A stretch of 49,240 nucleotides of DNA from Candidatus Tiamatella sp. GTDB taxonomy: Archaea; Thermoproteota; Thermoprotei_A; Sulfolobales; Acidilobaceae. Location of the stretch: assembly GCA_015522645.1 (NCBI GenBank), contig WALV01000036.1, forward strand, positions 1 through 49,240, written 5' to 3'. A program made the translations under genes and the position numbers. This document shows positions 873-29,860 of the stretch, in pieces. The notes beneath the pieces were generated by a model. It was not told where the DNA came from, did not search any database, and saw only the letters and a program-made list of their open reading frames with translations. The stretch's first letter is position 1. Every line of letters begins with the position of its first letter.

Positions 873-1469
873 CTACGATGGATTTAAGTGTAACCCTTCC
901 CTGATCATTGATACGGCGAAGGCTGCCATTATCATTGCCATTAATTTTTCGAATACTAAGCTACCATTTTTACCCATATACTTGAACAGGCTATCTCCTG
1001 CTAACAGTATAGGGTATGCTATAACTAGATTTACGATAGTACTTATGAGGGCGAACTCTAGTCCCCACATATATTTTATATAGATAACTGTTGATATAGC
1101 AGCAGGTCCTGCTAGTAATGGCATTGCTAAGGGGACTATGGCTATGTTTTCATTTGACGATTGTTTAGGCCCAAGGTCTATTTCTAGTAGAATTGCTATG
1201 AAGTAGATTAGAAGAATTATTCCGGCGGCTATCCTAAAATCATCTACTGTAACGTCTAGAATATCGAAAATTATATCTCCTAGTATAGCGAAGAAGAGCA
1301 TTATAAAAGCTGCCACTAGAATACTCATAGATATTATATGACGGCGTATTTGACTTGAATAGTTTTTGGTAAGTATAAAGAAATACGGGCTATTTCCTAT
1401 TGGGTCCAGCACTATGAATAACATTAGAATCGGCACTAGAAGACCATTCCCATACAACTCGTATTGCAA
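873..1469 (-). CDS. MarC-family integral membrane protein (UPF0056)
   Basis: The 198-residue protein is almost entirely hydrophobic with about six predicted helices. The N-terminal FIVLDPIGNSPYF and the central PLAMPLLAGPAAIST are hallmark MarC-family sequences. Transported substrates are not established for this family, and the original link to multiple antibiotic resistance was later withdrawn. The TTG start lies 2 nt after the GTPase stop and is served by a GAAGGG-type site inside that gene, indicating translational coupling. Length is normal for the family. Confidence 0.85.
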   Translation of the reverse strand: MQYELYGNGLLVPILMLFIVLDPIGNSPYFFILTKNYSSQIRRHIISMSILVAAFIMLFFAILGDIIFDILDVTVDDFRIAAGIILLIYFIAILLEIDLGPKQSSNENIAIVPLAMPLLAGPAAISTVIYIKYMWGLEFALISTIVNLVIAYPILLAGDSLFKYMGKNGSLVFEKLMAMIMAAFAVSMIREGLHLNPS

Positions 1470-24696: not shown

Positions 24697-24753
24697 GGGT
24701 AGACCCCGACAGCCGGTTTTATCCGGCTAGGGATGAAAGGGTCTCTCCCGGCT
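24697..24753 (+). promoter_or_regulatory. Leader with nested and competing hairpins before the PLP-fold regulator
   Basis: AGACCC (24701-24706) pairs with GGGTCT (24739-24744). Inside, AGCCGG (24711-24716) pairs with CCGGCT (24723-24728) over a 6-nt loop. A second CCGGCT at 24748-24753 could pair with the same AGCCGG and would break the outer stem, as in a switch. The segment lies downstream of a TATATC-like element (24666-24671) and upstream of the GAGGG ribosome site (24771-24775). A 5' leader of some 90 nt is unusual for a crenarchaeal gene. Confidence 0.5.
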
Positions 24754-24781
24754 ATCATCTATACTTACCCGAGGGATACTA

Positions 24782-26014
24782 TTGGATCTGATTTGTCCAG
24801 ATGGAGGTAAACCTGTTAATGGATTAATTTGCGAAGACGGAGCCAGCATTGGCGTTCCGAGAGATCTTTCCCACATTAAAGGATTCATGGAAAGGATATC
24901 TATGTCAGAAGGGTCAACGCCTATATTTGGTTCGATAGAATTTGAAGGACTCTACTTCAAGGATGAAACAAGGAATCCAACGGGTAGCTTCAGGGATAGG
25001 TCGGCCGTGACTAGTATAGCATTCCTAGCCTATTCAAGGGCTAATAGTATAATAGTGTCGGGAGACGGAAACACTTGTGCATCGTACGCTGCATACGCAG
25101 CTAGAACGGGGATATCGTGCACTTCAGTTATGCCGGAAGATAGTGATATCGTCAAAGTAGAGCAGGTAAGGGTATACGGGTGCAAGGCTCTCTTAAAAGG
25201 TGGAACTATGGACGAAACCCACTATATCGCAGAAAAAATGGGTTTAAAATATAATATGATACATATTAGAGTGGACAACGACCCGTATTCCCTATTGGGG
25301 CTTGTTAGGTTAGGCCTCGAGATTTCAGAGCACGTTAAAGAGAACTCGTTTGACGCAGTAATCGTTCCAGTCGGCTCCGGTGCTACATTAGCCTCCATCT
25401 ATACTGCCTTCAGGATGGAAAGTATTAAGAATGTGAGAATAATAGGTGTTCAGGCCGGCGAGGGCTCTTATGCCTCGCTATTCTCAGGGGATAAACCTAT
25501 GGAGTCTGGTGTTCATTACAGTATAAGATACATGAGTCCGCCTTTGCTATCAGCTGCTTATAACGCCACCCTATTGACCGACGGGTGGGGGACGTACGTT
25601 CCATTACCCCAGGTCTACGAGGAGTCTATAATGCTATCCGAGAAGGAGGGTGTTTTCGCGGAACCAGCAGCTGTAGCTGGCTATATTGTAGGAAGGAATC
25701 TTGTCAGTGAGAGAAAGTGGAGGGTTTTAATACTGATAACTAGCACTGGGTTAAAGACGGTTTCCCCTCGAACTCGATCATTGATAGGTGAAACTAAGAT
25801 AGGAATACTTCAGATTCTTAGAAAACATAAGCGTCTTCACGGGTATATGATTTGGAAGCTTTTAGGCGGTCGTATTTCGCCTCAAGCTGTCTATTCGAGC
25901 TTGAAATGGTTAGAGGAGAAAGGCTTAGTCTCTTCCTCGGTTATTGGTCGTAGAAAAGTGTATGAAATATCTGTTGAAGGAGTGAAGGCTCTTGAAATAC
26001 TGAGGCATGCATAA
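24782..26014 (+). CDS. PLP fold-type II (threonine-synthase-like) protein lacking the Schiff-base Lys, fused to a winged helix
   Basis: The 410-residue protein has two parts. Residues about 1-335 match threonine synthase-type fold II: FKDETRNPTGSFRDR, the substrate loop SGDGNTCASYAAYAA, the phosphate loop PVGSGATLAS and the ring-contact STGLK. The lysine that holds PLP in NPTGSFKDR is Arg here (codon AGG). Residues about 340-410 form a winged helix (IGILQILRKHKRLHGYMIW, SPQAVYSSLKWLEEKGLV) like PadR or MarR proteins. I infer a ligand-sensing DNA-binding regulator, an analogue of MocR/PdxR built on another PLP fold, or an altered enzyme. The TTG start follows GAGGG. An ECF transporter operon follows. 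Confidence 0.8.
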   Translation: MDLICPDGGKPVNGLICEDGASIGVPRDLSHIKGFMERISMSEGSTPIFGSIEFEGLYFKDETRNPTGSFRDRSAVTSIAFLAYSRANSIIVSGDGNTCASYAAYAARTGISCTSVMPEDSDIVKVEQVRVYGCKALLKGGTMDETHYIAEKMGLKYNMIHIRVDNDPYSLLGLVRLGLEISEHVKENSFDAVIVPVGSGATLASIYTAFRMESIKNVRIIGVQAGEGSYASLFSGDKPMESGVHYSIRYMSPPLLSAAYNATLLTDGWGTYVPLPQVYEESIMLSEKEGVFAEPAAVAGYIVGRNLVSERKWRVLILITSTGLKTVSPRTRSLIGETKIGILQILRKHKRLHGYMIWKLLGGRISPQAVYSSLKWLEEKGLVSSSVIGRRKVYEISVEGVKALEILRHA

Positions 26015-26030
26015 TATTTCTTTATCCGAT

Positions 26031-26052
26031 ATTAAACATTAAACTTTAATAA
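26031..26052 (+). promoter_or_regulatory. Promoter of the ECF operon with a repeat over the TATA box
   Basis: Two tandem ATTAAAC units (26031-26037, 26038-26044) run into TTTAATAA (26045-26052). The second unit also forms the palindrome ATTAAA-C-TTTAAT (26038-26050). TTTAATAA is about 31 nt before GTG 26079, so the S-component mRNA would be nearly leaderless. A protein bound to this palindrome would cover BRE and TATA and repress. The wHTH protein encoded immediately upstream is the obvious candidate, by inference. Confidence 0.5.
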
Positions 26053-26078
26053 CATACTGGTTCCTCATTCTTAAAACG

Positions 26079-26810
26079 GTGAAGGAATTGTCATCTAGAG
26101 GGCTAGAAGTCAAGATAATTGTTTACAGTGCAATCTTAACAGCCTTAGTGTTCGGGGCAACAATGGTAGCCATGGAAATCCCTGCAACAGGAGGCTATTT
26201 CAACCTAGGAGAAACAATGGTTTACACTTCTGCAATTATAGGAGGCCCTCTAGTAGGTGCAATTGCAGGAGGCATAGGAAGCTCTCTCGCAGATATCTAC
26301 AGTGGATACGGGAACTATGCACCAGGAACATTACTCATAAAAGGTATCGAAGGATTCATAGTGGGCTATTTATTCCTGTACTTGACTCGTAAAGGGTCCA
26401 AGTGGATAGGCACCTATCTTCTACCTATTATTGGGATAGTGGATGCTGGACTCTACTGGCTTGGAACACAATATTTAGTAGGTGAAGCTACATTCTATGT
26501 TTTCAGTAAAGCAGTAACATTCCATGTAGGGGTATGGTTTTGGGCTCTAGTATCACTACTTCTAGCAATACCGGCTATATACTTCTACGCCAAAAGCGAT
26601 ATAGAGGGACTCACGATAACTTACAGCATTATACCAGGAGGCTTAGAAATGATACTGGGATACTATCTATATGAGATAATAGTAATAGGGCTAACGCCGC
26701 AACAAGCGGGAACAGAAGTACCATTTAATTTTGGACAGATGATCATAGGCTTATTCGTAGCGCTCTACCTGGCAAAAGCGCTGAGAGAAGCAGGAGTAAG
26801 GGTGTTGTAG
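26079..26810 (+). CDS. ECF transporter S component (substrate-binding membrane protein)
   Basis: The 243-residue protein has six to seven hydrophobic segments. GGYFNLGETMVYTSAIIGG, then GGIGSSLADIYSGYGNYAP, and LIKGIEGFIVGYL are close to the PF07155/QueT/riboflavin-like S-component pattern. The C-terminal part is longer than in the minimal S unit, with an extra pair of helices. It confers vitamin or precursor specificity; the ligand cannot be read from sequence. GTG start at 26079, probably leaderless. The ATPase gene follows after 5 nt. Confidence 0.82.
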   Translation: MKELSSRGLEVKIIVYSAILTALVFGATMVAMEIPATGGYFNLGETMVYTSAIIGGPLVGAIAGGIGSSLADIYSGYGNYAPGTLLIKGIEGFIVGYLFLYLTRKGSKWIGTYLLPIIGIVDAGLYWLGTQYLVGEATFYVFSKAVTFHVGVWFWALVSLLLAIPAIYFYAKSDIEGLTITYSIIPGGLEMILGYYLYEIIVIGLTPQQAGTEVPFNFGQMIIGLFVALYLAKALREAGVRVL

Positions 26811-26815
26811 GTATA

Positions 26816-28093
26816 GTGATAGTAAAAGCAGAAGGCTTAACTCTCAGGTATGATAATGTAAGGGTTTTTTCTAATATTTCATTTACAGTTAGAGGGGGGG
26901 AAGCCCTCATTCTGACCGGTAGAAATGGAAGCGGTAAAACCAGTTTACTAAAAATTATATCAGGTATTATACCTTGGATAAAGCAGGGGAAGGTGACAGG
27001 GGAAATCCGTATTGATGGTCTGAACCCTCTTGAGAACCCTGATCCCCTCGCATACAAGGTGAGAATGCTTCCACCCGATCCTCAGCAATTCCTCCTCGCG
27101 CCAACACCATACGATGATATAGGATTCTCATTGAGCATACTTGGAATGAGCAGTGTAAAAGAGAGAATTGGAGACATTGCTTCAAGACTAGCTTTCACAG
27201 ACATTTTGTTTAGCCCGGTGCTAGAATTAAGCAGTGGGCAACAACAGAAAACAGCTATTGCAAGTACAATAGCTCCAGGTGTAAAATGCCTCCTCCTGGA
27301 TGAACCCATTTCTCATCTAGACTGGATTGAGAAAGATAACCTATTAAAACTGATACGAGAGTTTAAAAATAATGGTTTTTGCTTTATTATAGCTACGCAT
27401 TACCCTGAATATTTCTATAATATAAGCGATGCTATCCTAACACTAGGAGAGCACTCCTCCGAATACTGTGATAATAAAGATTATAAGGTTAAAACAGAAA
27501 ATGATCAACGAGTCGTTTTGAAAGCTGCAGATATATCATATGTTTATCCTAACGGGAATACTGTTCTGAGAAAGATAAATCTAAGTTTACTGAAGGGGGA
27601 AATACTCGTAGTATACGGTAGAAATGGTTCCGGTAAATCAACCTTGCTCTACACTCTCGCTGGAGTATTAAAGCCTTCTACGGGTTGCATTAGTTTCGAG
27701 TCTAAGCCTGCTATTCTACCTCCAGATCCAGTTAAGGTGTTCACAATGCCTACCCTTAGAAAAGAGCTTTCGAGCTATAATCCTGATCCAAGTTTTATAC
27801 GGGCGTTTGATGTAGATGGTTTAATGAATAGGCCATTAAACTACCTTAGTACGGGGGAATTAAAGAAATCCGCTTTAACTGTTCTCTTTGCAACCGGCTC
27901 ACGTATACTGTTAATGGATGAACCAGAGGCAGGTTTAGACCCTATATCTAGGTGTCGGTTAGCAAAGCTGATTACGAGACTATCCAGTTTGGGAGCTTCC
28001 GTCATAGTGGCCACTCACGATAAAGATTTCGGCCATATGATTGCGACGAGGGAGCTTGTATTAGAAGAAGGTGAGTTAAGGAGTGTTGCTTGA
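26816..28093 (+). CDS. ECF transporter double ATPase (EcfA-EcfA' fused)
   Basis: The 425-residue protein contains two ABC ATPase domains. The first has GRNGSGKTS (about 36-44), signature LSSGQQQK, Walker B LLLDEP and switch His in ATHYPEY. The second (from about 235) has GRNGSGKST, signature LSTGELKK, Walker B LLMDEP and ATHDKD. A fused pair energises uptake through EcfT. Both halves keep all catalytic residues. GTG start; its stop lies inside the first codons of ecfT (11-nt overlap), indicating coupling. Confidence 0.92.
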   Translation: MIVKAEGLTLRYDNVRVFSNISFTVRGGEALILTGRNGSGKTSLLKIISGIIPWIKQGKVTGEIRIDGLNPLENPDPLAYKVRMLPPDPQQFLLAPTPYDDIGFSLSILGMSSVKERIGDIASRLAFTDILFSPVLELSSGQQQKTAIASTIAPGVKCLLLDEPISHLDWIEKDNLLKLIREFKNNGFCFIIATHYPEYFYNISDAILTLGEHSSEYCDNKDYKVKTENDQRVVLKAADISYVYPNGNTVLRKINLSLLKGEILVVYGRNGSGKSTLLYTLAGVLKPSTGCISFESKPAILPPDPVKVFTMPTLRKELSSYNPDPSFIRAFDVDGLMNRPLNYLSTGELKKSALTVLFATGSRILLMDEPEAGLDPISRCRLAKLITRLSSLGASVIVATHDKDFGHMIATRELVLEEGELRSVA

Positions 28094-28805
28094 AGAATTG
28101 TTTCTATTATTTTCATTTGTTACTACGTATAGAGATGCTCGTGGGATAGCTTGGAGGATAGACTATAGAGTTAAAATATTCATGGTAGTATCTGCATGGA
28201 TCTCAGTTTTATATTTCAAAACACTACTTACAATGGTACTATCAACAGTACCAGTCTTCATTTACATAAGCATGACTAATAGGAGGCTGGCGAAGTATGT
28301 TTTGTCACTCTCAAGCATTCCAGCGGTAATAGTATTCTTAGTCGTTGTAATAGTCTCCCCTTATCCTTTTGCTTCGATCACAGGTATCATACAAGGTTTC
28401 AGAATAGGGTACAAAGTCTATGTGATGTCAGCCTCGTCAATGGCCTTCATGACTACAACTAACCCGGTTACGGTCTCAGGTATGTTTAGAAGGTTTCCAC
28501 GCGTCCATGATTACAACATCATTCTAGCTCGACTAGTACCATTAACTTTGAAGGATCTCAGTCAAGTTATTGGGATACAGAGAAGCTTAGGAAGACCAAT
28601 GCATAGGGTCTTATTCCCTGTAACGGTGAGTACGCTGAGACGTGGAGATGAATTAGCTGAATCACTTTACATGAGAGGGTATGGATTGATGTCTGGGAGA
28701 AGCATTATAAGAGAACCAATAGGGATGAATATTGAATCCTTGTTTCAACTATTAATTTCGATGATTTGCCCCGTTATCTCTTATGGAATACTGCATTGGG
28801 TGTAA
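28083..28805 (+). CDS. ecfT: ECF transporter transmembrane component EcfT
   Basis: The 240-residue membrane protein has about five to six helices and the cytoplasmic coupling-helix text of the CbiQ/EcfT family, including TLRRGDELAESLYMRGYG, with the conserved Ala-x-x-ARG-like MRG motif. It links the ATPases to the S component. The GTG start overlaps the end of the ATPase gene. With its two upstream genes it makes a complete group-I-like ECF transporter in one operon. Confidence 0.88.
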   Translation: MLLEELFLLFSFVTTYRDARGIAWRIDYRVKIFMVVSAWISVLYFKTLLTMVLSTVPVFIYISMTNRRLAKYVLSLSSIPAVIVFLVVVIVSPYPFASITGIIQGFRIGYKVYVMSASSMAFMTTTNPVTVSGMFRRFPRVHDYNIILARLVPLTLKDLSQVIGIQRSLGRPMHRVLFPVTVSTLRRGDELAESLYMRGYGLMSGRSIIREPIGMNIESLFQLLISMICPVISYGILHWV

Positions 28806-28808
28806 AGA

Positions 28809-29228
28809 ATGCCTAGGATAAAGTATAAGAAAGCACCCGATGTATGCTGTTTAGCTGGCAGAATAATAAGCCAGGGATACTTTTCCCACGTTAAAAAGGA
28901 TAGGATTTGGTGTCTCTCAAGCTGGGGGGCAAAGACTAAGGCTATTGCAAGGATTCATGGACTATCAAGTGCTTGGATCGCCATAGGCCTGGAGCCCGGT
29001 TATATCATAGAGGTCATCGGAGAGAAATTCTACAGTCTATCCTTTGAGGAGCAGGTTAAAACGGTTATACATGAATTACTCCACATCCCTTACACATTCT
29101 CTGGAGGACTTAGGCCTCATGGAAGACTAGTTAATAGTAGAAGAGTCAACACTATTTACAGAAAGCTAAGTCTAGACAAGTTAAAAGACTGTTATTGTAT
29201 AAGTAGTATAAAACAAGGTGGATTATAA
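28809..29228 (+). CDS. Small HELLH metallopeptidase-like protein (COG4900-like)
   Basis: The 139-residue protein has a gluzincin/minigluzincin-like zinc site TVIHELLHIPY (HExxH) and a downstream His in LRPHGR that may be the third ligand. An N-terminal CC pair and a C-terminal CYC are also present. The layout fits the archaeal 'predicted metallopeptidase' COG4900 group, whose substrate is not known. It follows ecfT by 3 nt and its stop overlaps the next start (TAATG), so it belongs to the ECF transcript. Confidence 0.75.
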   Translation: MPRIKYKKAPDVCCLAGRIISQGYFSHVKKDRIWCLSSWGAKTKAIARIHGLSSAWIAIGLEPGYIIEVIGEKFYSLSFEEQVKTVIHELLHIPYTFSGGLRPHGRLVNSRRVNTIYRKLSLDKLKDCYCISSIKQGGL

Positions 29229-29860
29229 TGACCCAGCTGCCAACGAAGTTTCTAGAGGACACCTTGGAGACTAGAAAACGTTTAGTTGAACTATTACTAG
29301 AGAAAGGAATGGTTCCAGAGGTTGACTGTGAACTCGTTAAAACTAGTTATCTACTTTCACCAATAGTGGCCACTTATGGTCCTGCTGGAATAAATGCAGC
29401 TCCCTTCATGGTCTCATACCTTGTGAAGGATCAGTGTTTTGAGGAAGCCTTGAATGAACTTAGAACAATAGAAGAAAACTATTGGGGGAAAGGAATGCTA
29501 GCCCTCTTAAAGGGCCTGAGATTCATCTTAGATTACGTTTACAATGAGAAATGCAGTGACCCGGGAAGAATGGTTTCACATGCAATGTCTAAAAGACATA
29601 CGTGGATAAACATAATGTCAAACAAGCAGGCAACTCTAGCCATTCTGATTCCACCAGACAAAGGTGCTTATGAGGTCAGGACGACAGTAGAGATCTATGA
29701 ATCCGGTCCCATATTTGAATACGTGAATCTTTTACATGATTTAATGCATGCTATTCCAGAAGGTAAAAGATCCCATACATGGTATCCTGCAATGGTGTTC
29801 ACAGTACAGGAAATATATGATAACAGTTACCAGAAGCTAGGAGAAAAGATTTATCCTTGA
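29228..29860 (+). CDS. Hypothetical protein at the end of the ECF operon
   Basis: The 210-residue soluble protein is not recognised. It has a helical N-terminus, CFEEALNELRTIEENYWGKGMLALLKGLRF in the middle, and YVNLLHDLMHAIPEGKRSHTWYPA near the end. The HDLMH text looks metal-binding but lacks the Glu of HExxH. The ATG overlaps the stop of the metallopeptidase gene (TAATG), so production of the two is coupled and they may interact. It is not obviously a membrane protein. Confidence 0.65.
   Translation: MTQLPTKFLEDTLETRKRLVELLLEKGMVPEVDCELVKTSYLLSPIVATYGPAGINAAPFMVSYLVKDQCFEEALNELRTIEENYWGKGMLALLKGLRFILDYVYNEKCSDPGRMVSHAMSKRHTWINIMSNKQATLAILIPPDKGAYEVRTTVEIYESGPIFEYVNLLHDLMHAIPEGKRSHTWYPAMVFTVQEIYDNSYQKLGEKIYP

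Follow-up and report, generated by a model that had tools for sequence, protein, structure and literature searches.

Is an archaeal protein that looks like threonine synthase, but has lost the lysine that anchors PLP and gained a C-terminal winged helix, an enzyme or a regulator, and if a regulator, of what? The gene in question, which we call REG, lies in the window (the whole stretch of 49,240 nucleotides of Candidatus Tiamatella sp. DNA that was analysed) and is followed there by the genes of an ECF transporter. We propose that REG is a one-component, PLP-responsive and probably non-covalent repressor of vitamin B6 supply, convergent with bacterial PdxR, and give this reading a probability of roughly 0.78. 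The features on which the analysis draws are collected in Table 1.

Table 1. Features of REG and of the adjoining ECF operon (positions in the window)
Feature	Position	Strand	Remarks
REG, proposed vitamin B6 regulator (threonine-synthase-like pseudoenzyme with C-terminal winged helix)	24782..26014	+	410 aa, TTG start, TAA stop
Shine-Dalgarno-like GAGGG	24771..24775	+	precedes the REG TTG start; kept in G001
KDETRNPTGSFRDR motif	24959..25000	+	Arg71 (AGG, 24992-24994) replaces the Schiff-base Lys
SGDGNT, residues 93-98	25058..25075	+	contains Asn97; substrate-loop positions 95 and 98 changed
GSGAT, residues 198-202	25373..25387	+	glycine loop that binds phosphate; threonine synthases have GNAGN (alignment)
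TSTGLK (STGLK = residues 321-325)	25739..25756	+	Thr320, likely partner of PLP N1
REG C-terminal winged helix	25790..26011	+	Pfam, AlphaFold2 model
Proposed operator, palindrome TATTAAACATT/AAACTTTAATA	26030..26051	+	promoter of the ECF operon
HmpT/PdxU-like S component of the ECF transporter (PF07155), proposed to bind vitamin B6	26079..26810	+	Pfam E 1.6e-27
ECF transporter ATPase with two fused ATPase domains	26816..28093	+	Pfam
ECF transporter T component, CbiQ-like, weak	28083..28805	+	E = 0.001, below gathering score; also called from its place in the operon and its overlap with the ATPase gene

The REG reading frame contains no internal stops and the opposite strand is not open; the TTG start is favoured because of the conserved Shine-Dalgarno-like element ahead of it. 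Pfam places a PALP domain at residues 39-319 (8e-46) and a PadR winged helix at residues 342-405 (4e-6, at the gathering score). An AlphaFold2 model built from a 32-row alignment (mean pLDDT 90.8) has two folded domains with a short low-confidence linker (residues 326-333) between them. The closest PDB folds to this model were all threonine synthases (2ZSJ, 2D1F, 6NMX and 1UIN; Foldseek E about 1e-19), which together with the PALP match assigns the PLP domain to fold-type II. In the model, the C-terminal domain consists of helices 337-349, 354-360 and 367-379, a two-strand wing (383-396) and a helix at 398-409, and among 22 family members 18 had a PF03551 (PadR) match in this domain. The initial annotation of this DNA had described the pocket loops SGDGNT, GSGAT and STGLK of fold-type II enzymes, an Arg (codon AGG) for the anchoring Lys of NPTGSFKDR, and a PadR/MarR-like winged helix at the C-terminus. 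All three descriptions hold: the loops are found at residues 93-98, 198-202 and 321-325, the Arg is residue 71 (codon from 24992) within NPTGSFRDR (residues 65-73), and the PadR match coincides with a separate folded domain in the model.

Relatives of REG were recovered with an alignment query of genome contigs; a search of the same kind with the single protein recovered none. The homologues fused to a winged helix come from Thermoproteota, Bathyarchaeia, Nitrososphaerota, Asgard archaea (Thor-, Loki- and Jordarchaea), Thermococcus and Thermoplasmata MAGs, and many of the genomes compared are MAGs. Across 93 distinct fused archaeal proteins the Schiff-base Lys is gone in 91, position 71 being occupied by Arg (46), Leu (24), Ile (9), Met (4), Tyr and Ser (2 each), Phe, Val, Thr and Ala (1 each), and Lys (2). 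The unfused homologues keep the Lys in 89 of 90 cases, the sole exception being a protein with Arg that is truncated by a contig end. Both congeners of the window species, whose proteins are 82% and 60% identical to REG, share Arg71, which is thus not a sequencing error. Other Lys-to-Arg fusions, for which the initial annotation had suggested a search, do exist, as part of a broader loss in which Leu, Ile, Met, Ser and other residues also take the place of the Lys; orthologs that keep the Lys, which it had counted against a pseudoenzyme, are confined to the two among 93. These two proteins (L063:4626-6071 and L077:6794-8224, both reading NPTNSFKDR) branch, weakly supported, within a group of Arg members, and may be reversions or surviving bifunctional enzymes. 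In a tree that contained true threonine synthases only, with outgroups and long branches removed, the fused proteins fell on one side of a branch with support of 95; a tree with distant outgroups was ambiguous between one and two origins of the fusion.

Loss of the Schiff-base Lys means that REG should not catalyse, and the remainder of the pocket was examined in the alignment. Asn97, which we take from threonine synthase structures to be the residue that contacts O3' of PLP in fold-type II enzymes, is kept in 86 of the 93 fused proteins, and Thr320, presumably the contact of N1, in 87. The phosphate loop of the fused proteins is still rich in glycine, GSGGT-like and not GNAGN, and the substrate-loop positions 95 and 98 have gone from Thr to Asn/Thr/Asp and Leu/Met. 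This pattern is the one predicted for binding of PLP without catalysis; a Lys-to-Ala mutant of another fold-type II enzyme, OASS K41A, is described as retaining PLP in an external aldimine.

The genes around REG point to vitamin B6. Clustering of the neighbours revealed that the same ECF-S family recurs beside REG in distant archaea, in either co-directional or divergent orientation. Among the REG genomes listed from a phylum sample of 300 genomes (at least 74 carry REG), an ECF-S gene lies within 2 kb of REG in 43 of 74, a divergent pdxS in 3, and one or the other in 46; in about a third of those listed, neither partner is found within this limit. REG is divergent from pdxS-pdxT in L210, L211 and L212 (Pfam confirms L210, and the pdxS of L212), and two further genomes have pdxS-pdxT-REG operons (L258:520-3290 and L259:472-3250). 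The REG members of these two operons have Ser71, and their winged helix has diverged so far that Pfam gives no match. In many Bathyarchaeia, the gene next after ECF-S is AIR-synthase-related (PurM/HypE-like; e.g. L070:2365-3360). The ECF-S gene of the window may instead start at TTG 26088, behind GGTGA (26078-26082).

Between REG and the ECF operon, the palindrome TATTAAACATTAAACTTTAATA (26030-26051) matches TATTAAA-N8-TTTAATA with zero mismatch in the window species and in both congeners, and with at most one mismatch allowed this pattern has a single site each in the window's genome and in G001. Comparable palindromes were found at ECF-S promoters of other archaea (TCTTAAAGTTTAAACTTTAATA in L150, TAGTATAGTTATAACTATACTA in L166 and ATATATAAGTTgaGACTTATATAT in L077, Lokiarchaeota). 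Their common half-site is TAKTAWAGTTN, and promoters of distant archaea share a palindrome of about 22 bp, TAKTAWAGTTN/NAACTWTAMTA. At least 9 of the 11 positions paired at 27 of 44 REG-adjacent ECF-S promoters, compared with 25 of 184 promoters used as controls (p 4e-10). A search of 12 whole Bathyarchaeia genomes with up to 2 mismatches returned 14 sites, and the reversed pattern returned none. Each of the 12 ECF-S promoters has a site; another site is a tandem copy, and the last lies at a pdxS promoter (G104), on a different contig from the REG gene. The pdxS promoter of G307 likewise has the motif, unlinked to REG, and weaker candidate sites precede pdxS in G223, G206 and G244; no convincing site was seen at the pdxS or ECF-S promoters of the REG genomes G229, G086 and others.

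A weight matrix, built from the same sites that it later scored, gave these sites 12.8-26.9 bits, versus at most 7.4 bits for 20 ECF-S promoters without an adjacent REG. When the window clade was left out of the matrix, the site at 26030 was still top-ranked across the whole window. A matrix without the Bathyarchaeia sites recovered the pdxS sites of Bathyarchaeia and missed their ECF-S sites, so the half-site has diverged between clades. A second matrix match in the window, at 1302, falls inside a gene (873-1469, minus strand) and was taken as a chance match.

The position of the operator also bears on the ligand. REG might sense an amino acid or an intermediate of the threonine pathway (threonine, O-phosphohomoserine) and control amino-acid genes, as its descent from threonine synthase would suggest; thrC is divergent from REG in one Bathyarchaeia lineage (L156-L159), and the Foldseek list includes a fold-type II Lys-to-Ala mutant, OASS K41A (PDB 1D6S), whose entry title gives PLP as an external aldimine. 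We considered thrC as a target because of this divergent position and rejected it: in that lineage the thrC promoter has no operator, which is found instead at the ECF-S promoter (and at pdxS). Since the operator is missing from the very thrC that adjoins REG, and since the recurrent partners of REG are the B6-type ECF-S and pdxST, an amino-acid sensor is unlikely.

What the transporter carries can be approached from homology and from gene distribution. In a comparison of the ECF-S profile with the PDB, the sole match was 4HZU chain S, HmpT of Lactobacillus brevis (E 1e-14), in which pyridoxamine is the bound ligand (PMC4860826); PdxU and PdxU2/HmpT are PF07155 proteins (PMC9997740). Of the six residues that line the HmpT pocket (PMC4860826), Glu41, Asn140 and Gln143 align with Glu45, Asn217 and Gln220 of the ECF-S protein, Tyr120 probably with Tyr195, and His84 and Gln87 are replaced by Lys88 and Glu91; HmpT has 166 aa and the protein of the window about 245. 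The one route of de novo PLP synthesis found in archaea includes PdxS (PMC9997740). ECF-S replaces PdxS across 300 genomes: 19 of the 145 that have ECF-S also carry PdxS, versus 125 of the 155 that lack it (p 4e-34, in counts that are phylogenetically non-independent), and in genomes at least 90% complete, 15 have both, 104 ECF-S only, 110 PdxS only and 19 neither. A stratified test within families, which alone corrects for kinship, gave an odds ratio of 0.105 (p 1e-5). The window's genome fits this distribution, as a search of it found no PdxS. From the distant homology and the complementarity with PdxS, we infer that ECF-S is a candidate subunit of a B6 importer. A different ECF S component (PF07155, 9e-9) adjoins pdxST in two Bathyarchaeia (L242:426-1304 and L243:2-757).

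The same data speak to the idea that REG controls another vitamin, the thiamine precursor HMP or riboflavin, for which the ECF-S protein would be specific. The name of PF07155 refers to riboflavin, HmpT originally took its name from HMP (PMC4860826), and ThiC was not found in the window's genome. Within families, however, ECF-S tracks the loss of PdxS and is associated neither with ThiC (odds ratio 1.7, p 0.77) nor with RibH (odds ratio 0.5, p 0.7), the window's genome encodes RibH, and both REG and the operator occur at pdxST too; we therefore rejected thiamine and riboflavin as the regulated vitamin, and consider this explanation very unlikely.

A third possibility is that REG is what databases call it. 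The NCBIfam model NF004170 (PRK05638, "threonine synthase", 442 positions) spans both REG domains (alignment 37-401) and describes the same architecture, a PALP domain followed by a winged helix. REG scores 197.9 bits against it, below the curated cut-off of 421 bits, and the proteins that do pass it (L031-L037) combine a winged helix with Arg in place of the Lys. Judged from the sequences, NF004170 / PRK05638 is the same protein family as REG, and the enzymatic function that it assigns is contradicted by the missing Schiff-base Lys. The possible new class suggested by the initial annotation is thus supported as a pseudoenzyme regulator and is not new as a family, being already in NCBIfam under the name threonine synthase. 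Our search of a collection of open-access papers found neither a fusion of threonine synthase with a winged helix nor an archaeal B6 regulator.

That REG is a threonine synthase, perhaps a bifunctional one with a DNA-binding tail or with another Lys in the catalytic role, would agree with the clear homology, the database name and the two fused proteins that keep the Lys. It is nevertheless highly improbable: the Lys is absent from the other fused proteins, including those over the PRK05638 cut-off; the window's genome encodes a separate Lys-bearing threonine synthase-like protein, as well as IlvA (threonine deaminase), and in several genomes the Lys-bearing paralogue adjoins REG; and Lys60, invariant in the fused proteins, is invariant in the unfused ones too and is thus not a newly gained substitute. 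NF004170 is a curated equivalog model with Lys-less, winged-helix-fused members, and is a likely source of misannotation. Through it, the PRK05638 name would carry a wrong enzymatic function into many archaeal genomes, with distorted predictions of amino-acid pathways as a consequence. Weak palindromes do arise by chance in AT-rich promoters, as the controls above illustrate, but a fusion that is vestigial and plays no part in DNA binding, with palindromes that are promoter elements or sites of some other regulator, hardly accounts for a winged helix with Tyr371 in 93 of 93 and His at position 373 in 88 of 93 fused proteins, for the absence of sites from the 20 ECF-S promoters without an adjacent REG, or for sites that are nearly unique in each genome.

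For REG as a repressor of vitamin B6 supply, we envisage the following mechanism. The sensor would be the threonine-synthase-type fold-type II domain, which without its Schiff-base Lys but with its ring, O3' and phosphate contacts kept most likely binds PLP, or a PLP-amino acid aldimine, with no covalent link to the protein. A REG dimer would set its two C-terminal winged helices on the palindrome of about 22 bp, and its targets would be the promoters of the ECF transporter, as importer of B6 vitamers, and of pdxST in genomes that have these genes. PLP-bound REG would most likely repress when B6 is plentiful, with PLP as corepressor; repression is favoured by the place of the operator, which overlaps the TATA-like region or comes after it, close to the start. 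The pdxS operators of G104 and G307, which come after a T-rich TATA-like stretch and end shortly before the ATG, fit repression. The sign could alternatively be the opposite, with activation in the absence of ligand as in bacterial PdxR.

Like REG, the bacterial regulators PdxR, MocR and GabR join a winged helix to a PLP-enzyme domain and have a role in B6 control. The initial annotation had drawn the parallel with MocR/PdxR and had guessed that the signal is free PLP, a vitamin B6-like compound or an amino acid. The neighbourhood, the complementarity with PdxS and the conserved operator back the parallel and favour free PLP or a B6-like compound, an amino acid now being less likely. Bacterial PdxR regulons comprise pdxST, pdxK and pdxU (PMC5320631), and comparative genomics, through adjacency and through operators at ECF-S and pdxST, suggests a similar regulon of B6 synthesis and transport for REG. 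The construction differs: MocR has a fold-type I aminotransferase domain and an N-terminal GntR helix, whereas REG has a fold-type II domain and a C-terminal PadR-like helix. MocR also has a PLP-binding Lys, which in GabR forms the internal aldimine (PMC6917764), whereas the REG family is mostly Lys-less, and the residue of REG that corresponds in function is Arg71. Archaea are stated to have no MocR regulators (PMC5320631). As REG has no homology to MocR/PdxR, the likeness is convergent.

With ThrC, the REG family shares the fold, the PLP ring and phosphate-loop positions and, in most members, an N-terminal zinc ribbon, and it differs in the missing catalytic Lys, the changed substrate loop and the added winged helix. 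PadR-family regulators share the winged helix with the C-terminal domain of REG; they have no enzyme domain, whereas in REG the winged helix sits behind a PLP-fold sensor. That this Lys-less fold-type II family is a hitherto unrecognised group of archaeal transcription factors which, in controlling both uptake and synthesis of B6, embodies the PdxR principle independently in archaea, alongside a candidate for the missing archaeal B6 importer, we regard as probable. If true, a PLP enzyme has been converted into a B6 regulator a second time, independently, this time out of the other major fold and with its catalytic Lys given up. For most prokaryotes no B6 transporter is known (PMC9997740), and archaea would gain candidates for three things together: a B6 regulator, an importer and an operator.

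Other genes of the window and its genome were also inspected. For pyridoxal kinase (PF08543), the window's genome gave sub-threshold matches only. A gene at 29228-29860 (plus strand), located a few bases past the ECF cassette and a metallopeptidase-like gene and kept in G001, has a sub-threshold match to PNPOx_N (pyridoxamine 5'-phosphate oxidase; E 0.005) and a single-sequence model with pLDDT 42; its product would fit B6 salvage, for which the match is too weak. Finally, a strongly conserved, hairpin-forming block lies upstream of REG, in the gap between kptA and REG (24701-24763, plus strand), and is kept in both congeners. It weakly resembles the Pyrobaculum H/ACA sRNA PyrR210 (RF02808, E 0.017, below the gathering score) and is probably a small guide RNA gene.
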